Shown here one piece after another: positions 1,821 through 11,633 of a stretch of DNA of 64,000 nucleotides. Below the pieces are notes generated by a model. The model searched no databases, was not told the DNA's origin, and saw nothing but the letters and a program-made list of their open reading frames with translations. Each line of letters opens with the position of its first letter. Within the stretch, counting starts at the first letter, position 1. The translations under genes were made by a program, and so were the position numbers. The stretch lies in contig NZ_LT670846.1 in assembly GCF_900142435.1 (NCBI RefSeq), forward strand, positions 124,001-188,000. Direction: 5' to 3'. The DNA is from Thermocrinis minervae (GTDB lineage: Bacteria > Aquificota > Aquificia > Aquificales > Aquificaceae).

Positions 1821-3171
1821 GCTAAGAAAGCTCGTAGAAAAGGGGAGATTGTCAACACTTGGCTATGCCCTTGGCTATTCTTTTATGCTCGCGTCTGGAC
1901 CTACGCTCATATCCATATCATCCATAGTCGGTGCCGGTTTCGTTTACTCAGATATGTTTGGGAGTGTTGTTAGAGTGTTCCAAGTGGTGGTCACCCACGT
2001 GGTGGCTTACAGTCTTATAATATCCGGCTGTTTCCAATTCTTCTTCACACGTTACGTGGCCGATAGACTCTTTGAAGAAAAGCCTGATAAGGTATTTCCA
2101 AATCTAAACGGTGCCTTATCTGTGGCAGCTTTGCTATCCCTTCTGTTTGGACTAGTCTACTATGCACTTTTTTTAAGAGATCTTCCTCCTATGTTCTGTC
2201 TTGAGTTTGTCGTGCTGCTTGTGCTCATGTCCATGAACTGGGTGTTGAACTCCCTGCTTACAGGTTTAAAAGGCTACAGGTATATATTCCTTTCCTATCT
2301 ATCCTCCTATGGGGCTTTCCTCTTGGCTGCTTACCCGCTGGGTAAGGTGTTAAGGCTGGAAGGTATTATACTAGCCTTTTTGCTTGGGCAGGCCATACTT
2401 TTCTTTAGCCTGTATGTTAAGGTTTTCATAGACTACCACTCTGAAGATTTCGTAGATTACGAGTTTTTATCCCCAAGTAAATCCTATTACATACTGGTGC
2501 CCATAGGTTTTCTTTACAATCTTTCCATATGGGCGGATAAGTTTACCTTTTGGTACCATCCGTTGACGGGTACGAGTGTTCTAGGTCCCTTTTATGCCTC
2601 TATAGTCTACGACATACCCATATTCCTGGCTTATATCTCCATAGCATCAGGTCTGGCAATCATGACCCTCTACTTGGAAGCTTACTTTTCTCAAAGCTAC
2701 GAGCGGTATTACTACCTGGTAGTTAAAGGAGGAACCCTTAAGCAGCTCTTCGAAAAGGCTATAGACATGGCTCAAGAGGCAAAGTTAGTCATAGTCTACA
2801 CTGCCTTCGTACAGATAATTACCGACAGTATCATCCTGATCTTTGCGGAGAAGATCTTTGGATTGCTTAAACTCTCCGTGTTGTACATTCCCCTGTTTAG
2901 GATTCAGCTTTTGGGGGTTACCTTTCAACTGCTTCTTACAGCCCTTATAGCTATACTCTTTTACTATGATAGGAGAAAAGAAGTTTTAGTTTTAACATCC
3001 TTCTATACCCTTTCGAATGTTTCAACAAGCGTAATAAGCATACAGGTAGGACCTTACTTCTATGGATATGGACTTGTAATCTCATCGGTCTTTGTTTTTA
3101 CTCTGGCCTATATGTACCTCAGGCGATTCTTTGGGAGGTTGCACTATGAGACTTTTATGCTTGTTCGTTAG
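1801..3171 (+). CDS. pelG: PelG-like polytopic inner-membrane protein
   Basis: This 456-residue protein is very hydrophobic, with roughly a dozen membrane segments. It starts with MAGIGFELRKL, the characteristic PelG N-terminus. In known Pel systems PelG belongs to the MOP/flippase-like group and is thought to move the growing polymer across the inner membrane together with PelF. Its start lies inside the end of pelF (20-base overlap) and its end overlaps the signal-peptide start of the PelA-like gene by 26 bases. No domain appears to be missing compared with proteobacterial PelG. Confidence 0.9.
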   Translation: MAGIGFELRKLVEKGRLSTLGYALGYSFMLASGPTLISISSIVGAGFVYSDMFGSVVRVFQVVVTHVVAYSLIISGCFQFFFTRYVADRLFEEKPDKVFPNLNGALSVAALLSLLFGLVYYALFLRDLPPMFCLEFVVLLVLMSMNWVLNSLLTGLKGYRYIFLSYLSSYGAFLLAAYPLGKVLRLEGIILAFLLGQAILFFSLYVKVFIDYHSEDFVDYEFLSPSKSYYILVPIGFLYNLSIWADKFTFWYHPLTGTSVLGPFYASIVYDIPIFLAYISIASGLAIMTLYLEAYFSQSYERYYYLVVKGGTLKQLFEKAIDMAQEAKLVIVYTAFVQIITDSIILIFAEKIFGLLKLSVLYIPLFRIQLLGVTFQLLLTALIAILFYYDRRKEVLVLTSFYTLSNVSTSVISIQVGPYFYGYGLVISSVFVFTLAYMYLRRFFGRLHYETFMLVR

Positions 3172-5791
3172 CCTACTTGTAATGGGGTATCTTTGGGCAA
3201 AAGAACCCAAGTTTGTAGGTGTTTACTATGCAGACGACCCACCTCCAGAGATGTTCTACATGTTTGACTGGCTAGTGCTTGATCCACATGCGTCTGCTAA
3301 TGTTCTAAAGAAAAAAAACCTCTACATAAAGCACAGAAGGGCAAAGCTCTTCGGGTACTTAAGCATCTTTGAGATATCCGCATCCAACCCACACTACAAG
3401 GAGGTAAAGCCTGATTGGATAATAGGAGAAAACCCTTACTGGAAGGAAAAAATCCTTGACCTTACCAAAGAAGAGGTAAAGGACTTCCTACTAAAGAGGG
3501 CCAAAGAAATAGTCAGCATGGGCTTTGATGGTTTCTTCTTAGATACACTAGACTCCTACAAGCTAGCCCTTCCTAAGGAAAGATGGGAAGAGCAAAGGAA
3601 AGCTCTTGTAGAGTTTATAAGGGAATTAAAAAGAGCTTTTCCGAAACAGAAGATAATACTAAACTGGGGGTTTGACGTTATCGAAGACGTAAATGACCTG
3701 ATAGATGGCTTTATGGTAGAGGGGCTCTTTAGTAAGATTGACTTTCAAAAGGGTGGCTACAGGGATACAACCGAGGAAGAAAGACAATGGCTCATAGAAA
3801 GGCTTAAGCCCATAGCCCAAAAGGTACCTGTCATCGTGGTGGATTACGTGGACCTACCAAAGGAAAGAGAAAAGGCCAAGCAGATAGCTAAAAAGATAAG
3901 GAGCTTAGGGTTTATCCCCTACGTATCTGTAAAGGAGCTTAACGTAATAGGCATAGTTGACACGGATCTTGTCAAGAGAAGAGCCCTTATGTTCTACGAA
4001 CCATCAGAGCCAAACTACTATCCAGGCTTTTCAGATCCGAGTAGGCTCGCCCAGCCTTACTTAGAGTACTGGGGCTACAGCGTAGACCTTTGGGATGTTA
4101 CCAAGGGAAAGCCAAGCTTTCCCCTTTGGGACAGGTATGCCGTTCTTGTCTTCTGGGTTAACTCCCAGCCTACATGGATGGAGGATCTTATCCTTGAAGC
4201 TATACAGGACGGGCTTAAGGTGGTTTTTATTGAAAACTTGCCGACCAGAGAGCAGCTTTTAAAAAAGTTAGATCTTGAAGTTTACCCTTCTTCTAAAGAA
4301 GGTTGGAAGCTTTTGGAAAAGGCTCCGTACGTAGGCTATGAGGTAGAGCCTTCTCCATCCTTCAACCCTGTGGTTTTTCCAAAGACAGGTAGTCCACTCT
4401 TGATTTATGCTAAAGGAAACCTAAGGTACTCACCCTTGGCCGTGACACCGTGGGGAGGCTATGCACTAGCTGGAGCGTACATAAGACAGCTATCGCAGGA
4501 AGTTTTCGTAGTAAACCCGTACGAGTTTTGGAGGGAAGTTTTAGGGGAGGAGGATGTAGCCTTTGAACCTGTCACCACAGAAAACGGGAGGAGGATACTA
4601 ACAATCCATATGGACGGCGATGCTTTTCATTCCAAGACGGAAGTACCTGGTTACACGTATTCAGCTGAAGTCCTTCTTAAGGAGCTCCTACAGAGATATC
4701 CTTTACCTCATACCATATCCCTGGTAGAGGCCGAGCTCCTTTTAAGCAAAGAAAGGCCAAAGCTTGAAGAGATAGCCAGGAAGATCTTTTCCTTACCTAA
4801 CGTAAAACCAGCATCCCATACCTTCTCTCACCCTTTTGACTGGAGAAAGATAGAAGAAAAAGCAGAAGGATACAACCTAAAGATTCCAGGCTACAAGTTT
4901 GATCTTAAAAGGGAAATCTTAGGTAGCGTTGATTATGTGGACTCCTTGGCAAAACCTAAAAAGGTACATATTTTCTTTTGGTCAGGCTCGGCAAACCCAC
5001 CGAAGGATGCCCTGGAGCTTTTGTACGAGGCTGGTCTTCTCAACCTAAACGGTGGGAATACTACTATAAGCAAAAAGAATCCTTACCTTTCAAGCATAAG
5101 CCCTTTGGGCGTAGACGTAGACGGTTACTTTCAAGTGTATGCACCTGTGATGAACGAGAACGTGTACACAAACCTGTGGACTGGACCCTTCTATGGTTAC
5201 CTGGATGTGATATCCACTTATGAACTCACCGACAAACCCTACAGGATAAAGCCTGTAGCCATCTACTATCACACCTACTCTTTTAGCAAGGTGGCTTCTT
5301 TTAAAGCTTTGGAGAGAGTATACCAAAAGGTCCTAACCTGGAAAGTTATACCCATGTACGTGGAGGACTACGCGTGGAAGGTTTTAGACTTTAGAAGTGC
5401 CGTGATCCTTAAGAGTGATGGACATTACATAGTTAGAAGTGGTGGTTTAATCAGAACCCTAAGGCTCAAAAAAGGTCTATACCCAGACTTAGAAAAGAGC
5501 GTGGGTGTTGTAGGTTTTACCATAGTAAACGGACACACATACGTCCACCTTGACCCTTCCGGAGACTACATCATAAAACTTACCGACAAACCCAAAGAAA
5601 GACCATACCTCATAGACTCTAATGGTTTTGTAGAGTACTTTGAAAAACATGCCAATGGCTTTAGATTAAAGCTCAAAAGCTACATAGAAGTAGATGCTTC
5701 AGTCTACCTACCAAAAGGCTGCAAGATGAACATGAAAAGAAGTCCCGATAATAAGGAGGCTCTGATTGATGTTGTATGCAAGGAAGAGTAA
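3146..5791 (+). CDS. pelA: PelA-like secreted polysaccharide hydrolase/deacetylase
   Basis: I chose the ATG at 3146 because GGGAGG lies 8 bases upstream and the product then begins with a signal peptide (MRLLCLFVSLLVMGYLWA); this gives about 881 residues. Residues about 20-270 look like the GH114/TM1410-type glycosidase barrel seen in PelA, with acidic residues D128 and D133 in GFDGFFLDTLD. Residues about 480-760 resemble a polysaccharide-deacetylase domain, with HMDGD (D490, D492) and SHTFSH (H558, H562) as plausible metal and catalytic residues. Known PelA cuts and deacetylates GalNAc-rich Pel in the periplasm. The assignment rests on domain order plus the pelFG neighbours; the N-acetyl substrate is inferred. 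Confidence 0.8.
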   Translation: MRLLCLFVSLLVMGYLWAKEPKFVGVYYADDPPPEMFYMFDWLVLDPHASANVLKKKNLYIKHRRAKLFGYLSIFEISASNPHYKEVKPDWIIGENPYWKEKILDLTKEEVKDFLLKRAKEIVSMGFDGFFLDTLDSYKLALPKERWEEQRKALVEFIRELKRAFPKQKIILNWGFDVIEDVNDLIDGFMVEGLFSKIDFQKGGYRDTTEEERQWLIERLKPIAQKVPVIVVDYVDLPKEREKAKQIAKKIRSLGFIPYVSVKELNVIGIVDTDLVKRRALMFYEPSEPNYYPGFSDPSRLAQPYLEYWGYSVDLWDVTKGKPSFPLWDRYAVLVFWVNSQPTWMEDLILEAIQDGLKVVFIENLPTREQLLKKLDLEVYPSSKEGWKLLEKAPYVGYEVEPSPSFNPVVFPKTGSPLLIYAKGNLRYSPLAVTPWGGYALAGAYIRQLSQEVFVVNPYEFWREVLGEEDVAFEPVTTENGRRILTIHMDGDAFHSKTEVPGYTYSAEVLLKELLQRYPLPHTISLVEAELLLSKERPKLEEIARKIFSLPNVKPASHTFSHPFDWRKIEEKAEGYNLKIPGYKFDLKREILGSVDYVDSLAKPKKVHIFFWSGSANPPKDALELLYEAGLLNLNGGNTTISKKNPYLSSISPLGVDVDGYFQVYAPVMNENVYTNLWTGPFYGYLDVISTYELTDKPYRIKPVAIYYHTYSFSKVASFKALERVYQKVLTWKVIPMYVEDYAWKVLDFRSAVILKSDGHYIVRSGGLIRTLRLKKGLYPDLEKSVGVVGFTIVNGHTYVHLDPSGDYIIKLTDKPKERPYLIDSNGFVEYFEKHANGFRLKLKSYIEVDASVYLPKGCKMNMKRSPDNKEALIDVVCKEE

Positions 5792-6686
5792 AAAGATAGA
5801 CGTAAGAAGTTTGGAAAAAGAACCACAGAGGGTGTTTATAAGTCCCTTTGAGATACTAGCTGTCCTCGTAGTCGTAGCTTTTCTACTGGTGCTCATGTTT
5901 CCCAAGAAAGATCTTGAGCAATACTTAAAGACTGCTCCAGAGGTAAACGTAGACCTTACCTTAGCCTACCTTGAAGCTTTGGCAAGAACAACCCCGAACG
6001 TAAAGGAAAGGGCATACATAGAAGGTCTAATAGTGGAAAAACTCGTATCACTTGGAAAATACGAAATTGCGGTAAAAAGGATAGAAGCTTTAGAAAAGGC
6101 GGGTATAGGAGACTGGGATCTTATTCTACTTAGGTATAAACTCACAAAACAGCTCTACTTTGCAGGCCGTGCTACCAAAGATCAAGTAGATAACTTCCTT
6201 GAAAAGCTCTTGAGTCTTGCAGATGATGACGTACAAAAGCTTAAGCTTGTCTTTTCGGAGAGCATAGCTATGGATGTACCAAAGGTAGCTTACAAGTCTT
6301 CTTACAAGCTTTATAAGCTAACAAAAGACATACAGTATGCAAAAGTAGCACTGGATTATGCACTCTACTATAGAGACAAAAAGGTCATAGAGGAGCTCTC
6401 TCCCTTTAAAGTACAGCTGGAAAAACAAGCTTTAAAAGACCTCCTTGCAAGCTTTCAAGCTGAAAAGGATAAAACCAAGAGAAAAGATCTCTTCGTGCAG
6501 ATTATAAGAGTTTATCTAGCAAACCAAGATTATGAAAACCTGGAAAAGTTTATAGATGCGCACTGGGCAGAATTCAAGGGTCAAAAGGATGTAGAAATGA
6601 TAGTGATAAGATCTCTACTCATGGCAGGTAAGCCGCAGAAAGCCGGGCAGATAGTCAAAAGTATATTCCAGGGGGAAGACAGATGA
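5769..6686 (+). CDS. Membrane-anchored TPR-like protein of the Pel locus
   Basis: About 305 residues, starting at the ATG 9 bases after GGAGG; a TTG three bases earlier is possible. A short basic N-terminus is followed by one strong membrane segment (about residues 23-44, FEILAVLVVVAFLLVLMF) and then about 255 residues of helical repeats of TPR/SEL character, predicted to be periplasmic. It overlaps the PelA-like gene by 23 bases and the PelB-like gene by 4. In Pseudomonas, PelB is a single protein with an inner-membrane anchor, TPRs and a barrel, and PelE is a membrane TPR protein. This gene could be the anchor part of a split PelB or a second PelE. I cannot decide which. Confidence 0.65.
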   Translation: MLYARKSKKIDVRSLEKEPQRVFISPFEILAVLVVVAFLLVLMFPKKDLEQYLKTAPEVNVDLTLAYLEALARTTPNVKERAYIEGLIVEKLVSLGKYEIAVKRIEALEKAGIGDWDLILLRYKLTKQLYFAGRATKDQVDNFLEKLLSLADDDVQKLKLVFSESIAMDVPKVAYKSSYKLYKLTKDIQYAKVALDYALYYRDKKVIEELSPFKVQLEKQALKDLLASFQAEKDKTKRKDLFVQIIRVYLANQDYENLEKFIDAHWAEFKGQKDVEMIVIRSLLMAGKPQKAGQIVKSIFQGEDR

Positions 6687-9373
6687 AAAAGGCCATATCT
6701 GCTCTCTTACTATCAGTTTCTATATCTCTTGGAGCTCCAAAAGAGTATTATAAAACCATGTTAGAAGCTTCCTTAGGGATAAATGATCTTAAAACTGCCC
6801 AGAGGGTCTTGGAGGATGCTTTAAGGGAGTACCCAAACGACGTGTACTTTTTAGAGTGGGCCTATAAAGTTTACCTATGGAGCTCTGATCTGGAAAAGGC
6901 TGGACTTTACGCAGAGAGATTCTACAGAGCCACGAAGAATTATGACGAAAATATTATAAAAGTCCTCAGAGTTGCAGGAAGGTACGATACCCTTTTGGAC
7001 ATCTACGAAAAGGAACTTTCTAAAGGTAACTTTGATTTCCTCCAGGAATACTACAAGGCCATCATCGACAGCTTTCAGATAGACAGAGGACTTAAATTCT
7101 TAGAAAACTTGTACAAAAACATATCTAACATAGAAGTACTCAAGATTATAGCTAAATTAGATTATGACACAAACAAGTTTGAAAGAGCAAAGGATAACAT
7201 CCTTAGGGTGTTGTCTAAAGACAATCAGTGGTTGGATGGTTATATCTTCCTTTACAAGATATTCTACGCGCAGAAGAACTACGAAGAGGCTTACAGGGTG
7301 TTAAAGACTATAAACGAAACTTTTAAAAATGTCCCAGAATATGTAAAAAGGGATCTACTAAGCATAGCTTATGGTCTTGGTAAACTAGAAGATGCTTACA
7401 AGGTGGCAAAACAACTTAGGGATGAAGGTAAGGCAGATAAGGATGTATACACGGTCATGCTTGAGTACCTCATCGACAAAAATCCTATTCAAGCCAGAGA
7501 CATAGCCATAGAAGCTTACGAAAAGACTAAACTTGACTATTTTCTAGACAATTACATACTGCTGTCTTATAGACTAGAGGACTACATGAGCATAGTCAAG
7601 ATAGTAGAACAGGAAAAACTCCAAGAGAAGCTAAAACCTTATACCCTAGATGCAGTTGCACAAGCCTACTATAGGCTAGGCTACAAAGACAAAGCTTTAA
7701 GACTTTATGAGTCATACCTGTCCAGGACTTTCGATACTAATGTACTGTCTTCTTTGTTGTACTTCTTAGCGGAAGCAAAAGATTACGAAAGGCTGAAGAA
7801 CTACACAGACAAGTACTACACTTACGCTTTAAAGACACCAGAGCTCTACCTTAGCTTCTTGAACGCCTATATTGCACTACAGGACTCTAAAAAGGGTCTT
7901 GCATTCTATCAACAACTCAAGGAAAAGAACGATCTATTTACCAAGTACCTTTACTCTTTTCTTCTTGATATAGCTGGTGAGGAGGAAAAAGCTAAGGCTC
8001 TAAGGTATCAACTGCTGAAAGAACTAGAGAAAAAACCTGAAGCTTATCAGGATACACAACTGGCTCAGGTACTACTAAGCCTTTATTCTGAGTTTAAGCC
8101 TGTTGATTACCTGAAGATCAAAGATAGGCTAAGAAAGACAGTAGGCGAAAAAGCCTATTGGGAGACATACCTTACGTACTTAGCATCCAACATGCATTAC
8201 GAAAAGTACAGCCTTTACGCTCGTAGCCACAGGGAGGCTGTAAGAGCTTGGATGGAGCTTTCAAAGGCCATAGAGGATTACGACAAGGATAAATTAGCTA
8301 AGCTGGTCGAAGAAAAAAGCCAGGAGCTACCGGTAAGGGACAGAGTCAGGGCTACACAGATGGCAGGGAACATAGGTCTGGCAAAAGAGTATGCCTTTGA
8401 AGGCCTTGAAAAGAATCCAACGGATTACCTCATGTACAAGCAGTTCAGAGACCTTTATATGAACTTTTCGGGTAATCTCACCTTTGAGACTTCTTACCAG
8501 AGTGGAAAGTACTTACAAACGGAAAGCATAAACCTAGATCTAAAGCATCCTCTAACGAACAGGCTTTACTTCCTTATATCCAGCAGTTTGAATAAGTATA
8601 CCTCACTTAGAGGTGATGTGATAAAGAAAACTCCAAGCAAGGATCTGTCAGCTAGTGTGGGGCTAAAGTACATAGGTCAAAGGACAAACTGGGAGCTCCT
8701 CTTGACACAAAGAGATGCTTTTACCAGTTACACTGGCTTTAGCCTTAAGATAGAACACTACCTAAAGGATAGACTAACGGGTATGGCTTTGGTAGAGTAT
8801 AGACAACCAGCCCAGGACAGCGTTTATACCATAGTGGGAGGTAGAAAGAACAGCATAACCCTCGGTGTTACATATTCCTTAAACACCAGAACGTACATAG
8901 ACACTACTTACTCCTACCAAAAGATAGAATCACAGGATGGCAAAAGCGTAGGAGATGCTAAGAAGCTTAATGTAGAGGGTTTTTATAAGCTGAGGGTTTC
9001 ATACCCAGACTTTACCTTTAGGGCCTACTATATGAACTACCAATACTCTGAGAAGAATAAGGATAAAGGAGTGCTTGACGAGGTATCGGCTACACCCACA
9101 AGATACCTACCTACATCTTTCTGGGAATCTGGCCTGGGCTTTCTGTTTGGTTTTGATCAGAAACACCTCTACACGGGGAGGCTAAGGCCCTTTGCAGATA
9201 TATCTATAGGTTACAACAGTCAGGGGACCGGTGTGTTTAGCGTGGGTGGAGGATTGGGCGGTCCCCTGTTTCATCAGGATAATCTATCTCTCGACCTAAG
9301 CCTCTCTAGAAGAGTAGGAAGGTTCACTGAGAATATACTTAATGCCAATATGATCTACAAACTATGGTACTGA
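6683..9373 (+). CDS. pelB: PelB-like TPR and outer-membrane beta-barrel protein
   Basis: 896 residues. An N-terminal signal peptide (MKKAISALLLSVSISLGA) leads into about 570 residues of helical TPR-type repeats. From about residue 595 the sequence changes to alternating beta-strand pattern (FETSYQSGKYL, YKLRVSYPDFTFRAYYMNY) and ends in an aromatic residue (MIYKLWY), typical of outer-membrane barrels. This matches PelB, the Pel export porin whose periplasmic TPRs bind PelA. It is shorter than Pseudomonas PelB (about 1190 residues); the difference is roughly the size of the preceding anchored TPR protein. It is the last gene of the operon and ends 9 bases from the convergent desulfurase-like gene. 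Confidence 0.8.
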   Translation: MKKAISALLLSVSISLGAPKEYYKTMLEASLGINDLKTAQRVLEDALREYPNDVYFLEWAYKVYLWSSDLEKAGLYAERFYRATKNYDENIIKVLRVAGRYDTLLDIYEKELSKGNFDFLQEYYKAIIDSFQIDRGLKFLENLYKNISNIEVLKIIAKLDYDTNKFERAKDNILRVLSKDNQWLDGYIFLYKIFYAQKNYEEAYRVLKTINETFKNVPEYVKRDLLSIAYGLGKLEDAYKVAKQLRDEGKADKDVYTVMLEYLIDKNPIQARDIAIEAYEKTKLDYFLDNYILLSYRLEDYMSIVKIVEQEKLQEKLKPYTLDAVAQAYYRLGYKDKALRLYESYLSRTFDTNVLSSLLYFLAEAKDYERLKNYTDKYYTYALKTPELYLSFLNAYIALQDSKKGLAFYQQLKEKNDLFTKYLYSFLLDIAGEEEKAKALRYQLLKELEKKPEAYQDTQLAQVLLSLYSEFKPVDYLKIKDRLRKTVGEKAYWETYLTYLASNMHYEKYSLYARSHREAVRAWMELSKAIEDYDKDKLAKLVEEKSQELPVRDRVRATQMAGNIGLAKEYAFEGLEKNPTDYLMYKQFRDLYMNFSGNLTFETSYQSGKYLQTESINLDLKHPLTNRLYFLISSSLNKYTSLRGDVIKKTPSKDLSASVGLKYIGQRTNWELLLTQRDAFTSYTGFSLKIEHYLKDRLTGMALVEYRQPAQDSVYTIVGGRKNSITLGVTYSLNTRTYIDTTYSYQKIESQDGKSVGDAKKLNVEGFYKLRVSYPDFTFRAYYMNYQYSEKNKDKGVLDEVSATPTRYLPTSFWESGLGFLFGFDQKHLYTGRLRPFADISIGYNSQGTGVFSVGGGLGGPLFHQDNLSLDLSLSRRVGRFTENILNANMIYKLWY

Positions 9374-9382
9374 CACCCTGTA

Positions 9383-10603
9383 TTATCCTCTGCTCTTTAT
9401 GTACTTCTCCCAGTTTTCAGGGCTGAAGGGCGATAGCTCTCTCAGTAGCTTTACCGTCTTTGGAAACTCCTCTATCACATAGTCTACGTCTTCTTCTGTG
9501 TTGTCCCTTCCGAAGCTAAACACGAGTGAACCGTTTGATACCTCTTTTGGTACACCTATGGCAAAAAGTACGTGGGACTGTTTGAGAGCTAAGGAAACAC
9601 ATGCTGAACCCGAAGCTGTCTCTATGCCCATGAGGTCCAACCTTAGTAACATGGCCTCACCTTCTATAAAGTGAACTATGAGAGACAGATGATGGGGTAG
9701 TCTCTGAGTGGGATGTCCTGTAAACTCTATGTAGTCAAGCTTTTCTTCAAGTGCCTTTCTTAGCTTGTCCCTGTAGTAAGATAGCCTCGTCATCCTGTCT
9801 TGGAGCTCCTTCATGGTGAGCTCAGCTGCAGCTCCAAAACCTACTATGCCTGGTACGTTCTCAGTACCTGCTCTAACACCTCTTTCTTGTGTACCACCTT
9901 CTATTAGAGGCCTTATCTTAACACCTTTCCTTGTCCAAAGGGCTCCTACACCCTTAGGTCCGTACATAAGGTGCGCAGTAAAGGATGCTGCATCCACACC
10001 CCAATCCTTTACGTCCACTGGGTAGTGTCCCAAGGTTGGGCATGCGTCCGTATGGAATATAACCTTAGGATTCTTTTCCTTGGCTGCCTTGACCAACTCC
10101 TTTATGTTCTGTATGGTACCTATCTCCCTGTTGGAGTGGCCTATGCTTACGAGCACTGTATCTTCTCTAACAGCTTCCCTAACCTGGTCTGGGTGTATAA
10201 GACCGTACTTGTCTGGCTTTAGGTAAGTCACCTCCCAACCTTTCCTTTCTAAGCTTTTGAGTGGATGCAGTATAGAGTGGTGCTCTATCTCTGTGCTGAC
10301 TATATGCCTTCCCTTCTTCTCGTATGCTTCGGCTATACCTTTTATGGCAAGGTTGTTAGCCTCTATACCACCTGAGGTAAAAATTATCTCCTCCGGGCTG
10401 TTGGCGTTTATCAGAGTGGCTATCTTCTCCCTAGCCTCGTTTATGGCCTTCTTAGCTTCCTGACCAAAGGAGTGTAGAGAGGTAGGATTTCCAAACCTTT
10501 CCCTAAAATAGGGGAGCATAGCCTGCAAGACTTCCTCAGCCACAGGAGTTGTGGCTATATGGTCCACGTAAACTACCCTTTTGCCAGCCTTCCTGAAAAA
10601 CAT
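9383..10603 (-). CDS. Cysteine desulfurase-like protein lacking the PLP lysine
   Basis: A 406-residue protein clearly of the NifS/IscS aminotransferase class V fold. It keeps HTDA (D186, PLP ring), N158, H108, the mobile-loop cysteine C335 in SGSACVS, and GTQERGVRAGTEN. The position of the PLP-binding lysine (SGHK in IscS) reads TAHL, so L212 replaces lysine. The usual phosphate-contact SGGTEAN reads SGGIEAN (I80). YLDNNATTP has become YVDHIATTP. The codon for L212 is CTT at 9968-9970 and the frame is intact around it, so a simple frame error is unlikely. It may be a catalytically altered paralogue or use another lysine such as K217. It lies 4 bases downstream of mrp on the same strand, a likely operon. 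Confidence 0.85.
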   Translation of the reverse strand: MFFRKAGKRVVYVDHIATTPVAEEVLQAMLPYFRERFGNPTSLHSFGQEAKKAINEAREKIATLINANSPEEIIFTSGGIEANNLAIKGIAEAYEKKGRHIVSTEIEHHSILHPLKSLERKGWEVTYLKPDKYGLIHPDQVREAVREDTVLVSIGHSNREIGTIQNIKELVKAAKEKNPKVIFHTDACPTLGHYPVDVKDWGVDAASFTAHLMYGPKGVGALWTRKGVKIRPLIEGGTQERGVRAGTENVPGIVGFGAAAELTMKELQDRMTRLSYYRDKLRKALEEKLDYIEFTGHPTQRLPHHLSLIVHFIEGEAMLLRLDLMGIETASGSACVSLALKQSHVLFAIGVPKEVSNGSLVFSFGRDNTEEDVDYVIEEFPKTVKLLRELSPFSPENWEKYIKSRG

Positions 10604-10607
10604 GTTT

Positions 10608-11633
10608 TTACCTCCTTGTTATGTCAGATATCAATTTTGCTATGCTTAAAAAGGCTTTTGCCACCTCGGACTCAGGGTGGCTTTCCACCACGGGTGTCCC
10701 TTTATCCGAGTCCTCGGCCACCTGTGGGTCTATGGGTATGGAACCCAAGACCTTTGTACCGTATTGGGAAGCAAACTCCATTACCTTACCTTTTCCAAAT
10801 ATGTAGTATTTGTTGCCACTTTCGGGGCACACAAAGTATGCCATGTTTTCTACAACACCCAGTATGGGTATCTGCACCTCTCTGAACATAGCCGTAGCCT
10901 TTCTAACGTCTGCAAGTGCCACATCTTGAGGTGTGGTAACTATGATGGCTCCATCCATCTGAACGTTCTGGGCTAAGGTCAGTTGCACATCTCCTGTTCC
11001 AGGAGGTAAGTCAAGGATCAGGTAATCCAACTCACCCCAGTTTACGTCAAAGAGAAACTGCGTTAATGCCTTCATGAGCATAGGTCCACGCCATATGACC
11101 GGTGTATCCTCAGAAGGCAGCAAAAAGCCTATAGAGAGTACCTTTAGGCCATACTTCTCCAAAGGGATTATTCTGTTGTTTTCGTCCACGTAAACCCTTT
11201 GGTTCTTAAGACCCAAGAGAGTAGGTACGCTAGGCCCGTACATGTCAGCATCAAGAAGACCCACCTTATAGCCAAGCTTTGCTAAGGCTACGGCTAGGTT
11301 TGCCGCCACTGTGGACTTACCAACACCACCTTTGCCACTACCAACGGCTATAAGGTTCCTAACACCTTCTACCTTTCTTCTTACAAACATGGGCTGGCTA
11401 AAGGCAGGTGGTTCTTCCCTGACCTCTACAAACCTTACCTTTATGTCCTTGACGTCTGGCATATCCTTTAGTGCCTGCCTTGTCTTCTCCTCCAGCTCCC
11501 TTTCTACACCCTTCTCCTTTATGCCATATACTATCTCAAGGGTAGAGCCTATAAGCTTTATGTCCTTCACGAACTGTGAAAGACCCGCATCTCTAAGAGT
11601 GTCCATTATCTCCTTTACAGCCATGAGATTCAT
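10608..11633 (-). CDS. mrp: Mrp/ApbC/NBP35 family Fe-S cluster carrier ATPase
   Basis: 341 residues. Residues about 1-70 form a MIP18/DUF59-like domain. After it comes a deviant Walker A P-loop ([11 protein letters not shown], about 98-108) and the NBP35/ApbC ATPase with DADMYGPSVPTLLG and LPPGTGDV. These proteins bind and transfer [4Fe-4S] clusters in the cytoplasm. The usual CxxC cluster motif reads CPESG here (C269, S272), so the second cysteine is missing; some Mrp homologues in other phyla share this. A start at the internal ATG (residue 4) is equally possible. It precedes the desulfurase-like gene by 4 bases, consistent with a shared Fe-S role. Confidence 0.9.
   Translation of the reverse strand: MNLMAVKEIMDTLRDAGLSQFVKDIKLIGSTLEIVYGIKEKGVERELEEKTRQALKDMPDVKDIKVRFVEVREEPPAFSQPMFVRRKVEGVRNLIAVGSGKGGVGKSTVAANLAVALAKLGYKVGLLDADMYGPSVPTLLGLKNQRVYVDENNRIIPLEKYGLKVLSIGFLLPSEDTPVIWRGPMLMKALTQFLFDVNWGELDYLILDLPPGTGDVQLTLAQNVQMDGAIIVTTPQDVALADVRKATAMFREVQIPILGVVENMAYFVCPESGNKYYIFGKGKVMEFASQYGTKVLGSIPIDPQVAEDSDKGTPVVESHPESEVAKAFLSIAKLISDITRR

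Follow-up and report, generated by a model that had tools for sequence, protein, structure and literature searches.

Group I cysteine desulfurases bind PLP through an active-site lysine, which in E. coli IscS is the internal-aldimine lysine Lys206 (PMC2854127). Some members of the family have lost this residue. The IscS of Archaeoglobus fulgidus, in which the residue at the Schiff-base position is Asp, has been described as being without desulfurase activity, yet a Cys of this protein ligates the [2Fe-2S] cluster that IscU carries (PMC7585200). Structures of this protein are available (PDB 4eb5, 4eb7 and 4hvk), as well as that of a D-to-K variant (4r5f). Methanosarcina acetivorans IscS1, which is considered here from its published description, is also Lys-less and its gene adjoins iscU (PMC7585200). 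A two-protein ISC core without the chaperone set, as in the case studied here, is found in the minimal ISC system MisS/MisU, which we compare by description only.

Here we describe a Lys-less homologue from the hot-spring bacterium Thermocrinis minervae, which we call iscS*. Its gene lies in a window of 64,000 nucleotides, by which we mean the whole stretch of DNA that was analyzed. The protein has the IscS fold and the loop Cys in common with A. fulgidus IscS, and both have lost the Schiff-base Lys, the substrate Arg and the cofactor Gln. They differ in that the archaeal protein has exchanged Lys for Asp, whereas the bacterial proteins carry Leu or Tyr; furthermore, A. fulgidus IscS keeps the phosphate Thr and the functional Asn, both of which are lost in iscS*. 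The partner of the A. fulgidus protein is IscU, and iscS* is paired with IscU genomically by co-occurrence in the same families and by a shared gene string. Unlike iscS*, MisS is a cysteine desulfurase according to its description. M. acetivorans, unlike the genome studied here, also carries Lys-bearing IscS copies.

Active-site substitutions and their conservation

The gene iscS* (9383..10603, minus strand) is an open reading frame of 406 aa, identified as a group I cysteine desulfurase homologue by matches to Pfam PF00266 and to NCBIfam. The best NCBIfam match is NifS (TIGR03402), with a score of 481 bits that is below the cut-off of 531; the IscS equivalog is matched with 391 bits, again below its cut-off of 643. 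The protein is 39% identical (158/404) to E. coli IscS (1p3w, 3lvm), with which it has the group I fold and the loop Cys in common; the residues K206, N155, Q183, T76 and R354 of the E. coli enzyme are all replaced.

The alignment places codon 212 (CTT, 9968..9970, minus strand as for all codons below) at the position of E. coli Lys206. The protein reads FTAHLMYGPK around this codon, so that the Leu in place of the PLP lysine, reported in the initial annotation of this DNA, is real. The same annotation was correct in reading the PLP-phosphate Thr as Ile, which is Ile80 (10364..10366; E. coli T76), and in listing as retained Cys335 (9599..9601; the loop cysteine, E. coli C328), His108 and Asp186. 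Thr209, which is Ser in E. coli, His211 and K217 are kept as well. In contrast, its statement that Asn158 remains is misleading: this residue aligns with E. coli N154, while the functional Asn (E. coli N155, beside E156) is Arg159 (10127..10129). It also missed further losses, namely Pro189 (10037..10039) at the position of the PLP-contacting Gln (E. coli Q183), Val361 (9521..9523) at the position of E. coli R354, and Ile16 (10556..10558), where canonical enzymes have Ala and the Hydrogenothermaceae proteins Leu. In this family R354 is the Arg that binds the substrate carboxylate. In sum, the Schiff-base Lys, the PLP-phosphate Thr, the cofactor Gln, the functional Asn and the substrate Arg of active group I enzymes are absent from iscS*. 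K217 was considered as a substitute lysine and rejected; this residue is simply the Lys of the YGPKG motif, which active enzymes have as well. An AlphaFold2 model of iscS*, computed from nine sequences, had a mean pLDDT of 60.7 and was too poor for use.

The alignment of homologues, which had been proposed as a check, showed that the Leu at the Schiff-base position is conserved in 54/54 distinct Aquificaceae orthologues, where it is encoded by CTC, CTT, CTG or TTG. All distinct Hydrogenothermaceae orthologues (30/30) have Tyr at this position. Cys335 is invariant in the entire set of 84 distinct orthologues, across which the rewriting of the pocket at six positions (16, 80, 159, 189, 212 and 361) is also fixed. 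The nearest named relatives of the window protein come from Thermocrinis and Hydrogenobacter MAGs and are ~90-92% identical. In comparison with the nearest orthologues dN is ~0.06 and dS is 2-3.5, the latter near saturation; iscS* is under strong purifying selection.

A structure of an orthologue has been deposited as 'cysteine desulfurase' (PDB 9wfy). Its sequence is identical to one of our orthologues (L035, genome G001) and 88% identical to the window protein; we take it to be, very probably, the protein of Aquifex aeolicus VF5. In six further entries residues are restored in a stepwise manner. The series begins with R159N and L212K (9wfe), to which V361R (9wfb), P189Q (9wf8), I80T (9wew) and I16A (9wer) are added in turn; the last entry (9wep) contains in addition G155M, A188V and T209S. 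The first six positions restored in this series are the six that stand out in the present alignment. Given these entries, the Lys-less variant has already been noticed by others; a literature search by PDB code and topic returned no paper on entries 9wep-9wfy.

The occurrence of Leu in 54 independent orthologues, via several codons, answers the doubt whether re-sequencing could reveal a Lys. Together with the purifying selection and the solved Leu orthologue 9wfy, it rules out that iscS* is a sequencing error or a decaying pseudogene, an explanation that we regard as refuted. The substitutions are a conserved change.

Lys-less relatives also occur outside the Aquificota (L164, L165 and L156 for the Arg and Gln cases). 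Arg is found at the Lys site (SLTAHRFYGPKG) in a Nitrospirae MAG and in a further bacterial MAG, in both cases beside iscU and with no mrp nearby; Gln (SLSASQFYGPKG) is found in an Actinomycetes MAG. In a tree, which was built without the active-site columns and without long degenerate paralogues, these bacterial relatives join the Aquificota with a support of 99/95, and A. fulgidus branches outside. The loss of the Lys takes two changes on this tree; one shared clade with A. fulgidus is not rejected (p-AU 0.124).

Desulfurase content and gene strings in the Aquificota

The window genome comprises 1,367,821 bases and is scored 100% complete. It contains five matches to PF00266: iscS* and four ordinary enzymes, which read as a serine-glyoxylate-type aminotransferase, an aspartate aminotransferase and two glycine decarboxylase subunits. 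Hence the hunt for a second, canonical iscS or sufS gene with PF00266 returned no Lys-bearing desulfurase in this complete genome, and SufB/D were not found in it either. None of the genes in 64 Aquificaceae genomes scores above the SufS cut-off, and a Lys-bearing desulfurase was not seen in 9/11 Aquificaceae genomes that are assembled as one or two contigs. Five Lys-bearing Aquificaceae copies were examined. All of them are surrounded by genes that read as a formate dehydrogenase cluster, and none is with iscU; because all five adjoin such genes, they are probably dedicated to formate dehydrogenase.

The Lys-bearing desulfurases of L063, L064, L065, L066 and L068 are located in a conserved cluster with fdhB-, fdhC- and fdhE-like genes and a gene for a small Tat-like protein. 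This arrangement suggests that they serve the maturation of formate dehydrogenase. A second and more degenerate desulfurase-like paralogue, with FDGPSLLGPQG or similar at the Lys site, is present in L067 (3239-4432), L069, L070, L071 and L056. In 5/5 Aquificaceae loci it is flanked by an aldehyde:ferredoxin oxidoreductase-like gene and a nifV-like gene, and it may be an inactive NifS connected with nitrogen fixation or with a tungsten enzyme.

IscU (PF01592), which keeps its three Cys and the N-terminal Tyr, is found in 60/64 Aquificaceae and in 38/41 Hydrogenothermaceae genomes. It is found in 0/31 genomes of other Aquificota families, and the Lys-less IscS is likewise absent from those. In the named set of Hydrogenothermaceae loci iscU lies downstream of iscS*, either directly or within ~2 kb, in 15/25 cases; some of the remaining 10 are cut by contig ends. 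Many Hydrogenothermaceae have the gene string mrp-iscS*-iscU-(ThiI-like)-tusA-DUF1858-nfu. The Aquificaceae have this string split in two, and iscU is not adjacent to iscS*. The order of the genes after iscU is identical in both families: a ThiI-like PP-loop protein with an NFACT-R_2 domain, TusA, a DUF1858 protein and an Nfu-domain protein. In the window genome this second part, starting with iscU, occupies C1:402975-405201 (L166:5976-8202), and the starts and stops of its genes overlap. The 25 loci that were examined, from both families, all have tusA (with the CPxP Cys) two genes behind iscU and the ThiI-like gene between them. The window genome has five TusA-type matches and a rhodanese.

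The ThiI-like PP-loop protein has five invariant Cys (C40, C100xxC103, C208 and C209) and matches no exact family model. In the methanogen ThiI a set of three Cys, a CxxC plus one, binds an Fe-S cluster, and sulfide can be used in vitro (PMC5372739). The Cys pattern of the PP-loop protein recalls this set, which makes it a lead and not a test.

The most constant neighbor of iscS* is mrp (10608..11633, minus strand), which encodes a P-loop NTPase of the NUBPL/ApbC type according to its ORF, its domain match and its conserved position. It lies 4 bases upstream of iscS* and is directly upstream in nearly every Aquificota locus. The initial annotation had called its CxxC motif incomplete, and indeed it reads CPES here; the second Cys is missing in 40/40 of the Aquificota sequence variants listed. 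As judged from these sequences, the cluster-bridging Cys pair of Mrp is incomplete across the same organisms. On the other side of iscS*, running towards it on the plus strand (3092-9373), are genes for an 899-aa glycoside hydrolase/deacetylase-like protein, a 306-aa protein and an 896-aa repeat-plus-barrel protein, which by their sequences resemble a Pel-type exopolysaccharide set.

Possible roles of the Lys-less IscS

We consider it probable that iscS* is a catalytically dead, PLP-free IscS, which is kept as a partner of IscU and helps to form clusters with sulfur that does not come from cysteine. This reading is favored because the pocket is rewritten while Cys335 is invariant, because the gene is under purifying selection, and because the genome has neither a Lys-bearing desulfurase nor SufB/D. 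It is further favored by the co-occurrence with IscU at the level of families, by the mrp-iscS*-iscU string and by the A. fulgidus precedent, and also because the examined Lys-bearing copies of the Aquificaceae lie in formate-dehydrogenase-type clusters away from iscU. Judging from the aligned sites, a protein that lacks the Schiff-base Lys, the substrate Arg, the phosphate Thr and the Gln and Asn that contact the cofactor should bind neither cofactor nor cysteine; it retains its fold and the loop Cys335. IscU would then dock near the C-terminus of iscS*, and Cys335 could act as a ligand or as a transient sulfur anchor for a [2Fe-2S] cluster on the three Cys of IscU, as in the A. fulgidus IscS-IscU structure. 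The sulfur would be delivered as sulfide or by a persulfide carrier, for example a TusA persulfide, and not by cysteine. Two observations can be held against a partnership with IscU: the face on which IscU docks in E. coli is no better kept than the rest of the protein (9/24 versus 158/404), a comparison of little diagnostic value, and iscU and iscS* are apart in the Aquificaceae.

The explanations offered in the initial annotation are thus supported in part. A role as an Fe-S scaffold or sulfur relay through Cys335 is the best-supported of them, in view of the iscU co-occurrence, the gene string shared by many Hydrogenothermaceae and the A. fulgidus case. An inactive partner of another desulfurase does not fit a genome that has no other desulfurase. 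It is also very improbable that iscS* is still a PLP-dependent desulfurase, which binds PLP non-covalently or via K217. The retention of H108, D186, T209, H211 and K217 would agree with such an activity; however, other residues have become fixed in place of the Lys, the phosphate Thr, the substrate Arg, the Gln and the Asn, six pocket positions have changed together, K217 is a lysine that active enzymes have anyway, and the A. fulgidus IscS with the same Lys loss is described as inactive (PMC7585200). Somewhat less remote, although still unlikely, is the idea that the main partner of iscS* is not IscU but Mrp or another client; iscS* might, for instance, be a docking platform, and Cys335 might be used otherwise. 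The constant position of mrp directly upstream and the loss of one Cys from the CxxC of Mrp itself are in line with this idea. Against it stand the phylum-wide co-occurrence of iscS* and IscU and the two Lys-less relatives outside the Aquificota that lie beside iscU with no mrp nearby.

A more serious alternative, although one that we consider rather unlikely, is an inverted persulfide relay. Here TusA, which the chemistry of sulfur oxidation or of a rhodanese would charge, would dock on the dead IscS and pass sulfane sulfur to Cys335; from there the sulfur would go to IscU and, perhaps, the ThiI-like protein. The IscS would then be a receiver hub and not a producer. The constant place of tusA and of the ThiI-like gene behind iscU in both families is consistent with such a relay, as are the five TusA-type matches and the rhodanese of the window genome, and IscS is known to bind TusA (PMC2854127). 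On the other hand, in E. coli the sulfur goes from IscS to TusA and not in the reverse direction, and TusA may feed the ThiI-like protein directly. Of the 7 E. coli residues of the TusA face, iscS* has only 2; this face is also not kept in the Lys-bearing IscS of Desulfotruncus. The relay shares most of its evidence with the PLP-free IscU partner that we prefer, and the difference between the two is the source of the sulfur on Cys335. As a tentative extension, the entire string mrp-iscS*-iscU-(ThiI-like)-tusA-DUF1858-nfu may be a cysteine-independent sulfur system. In it Cys335 would be loaded with TusA persulfide or with sulfide, and the dead IscS would serve both IscU, for Fe-S clusters, and a ThiI-like thiolase of the Fe-S type. 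If this were true, IscS would receive sulfane sulfur instead of producing it, and would do so in two bacterial families.

Meaning for Fe-S cluster assembly in the Aquificota

The principle is not new, as it has been published for one archaeal protein and structures of an orthologue have been deposited. Within the literature searched the extent appears to be new: the variant spans two bacterial families, its substitutions are other and more numerous ones, and one genome has this probably dead protein as its sole IscS/SufS/NifS relative of the kind. A single archaeon has supplied most of the published evidence that an inactive IscS can act as the partner of a scaffold. In the window genome a Lys-less IscS takes the place of every cysteine desulfurase, with no SUF scaffold as a fallback. 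The annotation 'cysteine desulfurase' in Aquificota is thus no basis for inferring that sulfur is derived from cysteine. Because two families keep the Lys-less IscS under strong selection, and because it is the sole desulfurase homologue here in a genome without SUF, the question whether an ISC system can operate without cysteine sulfur becomes directly testable in the culturable genera Aquifex, Hydrogenobacter and Thermocrinis.
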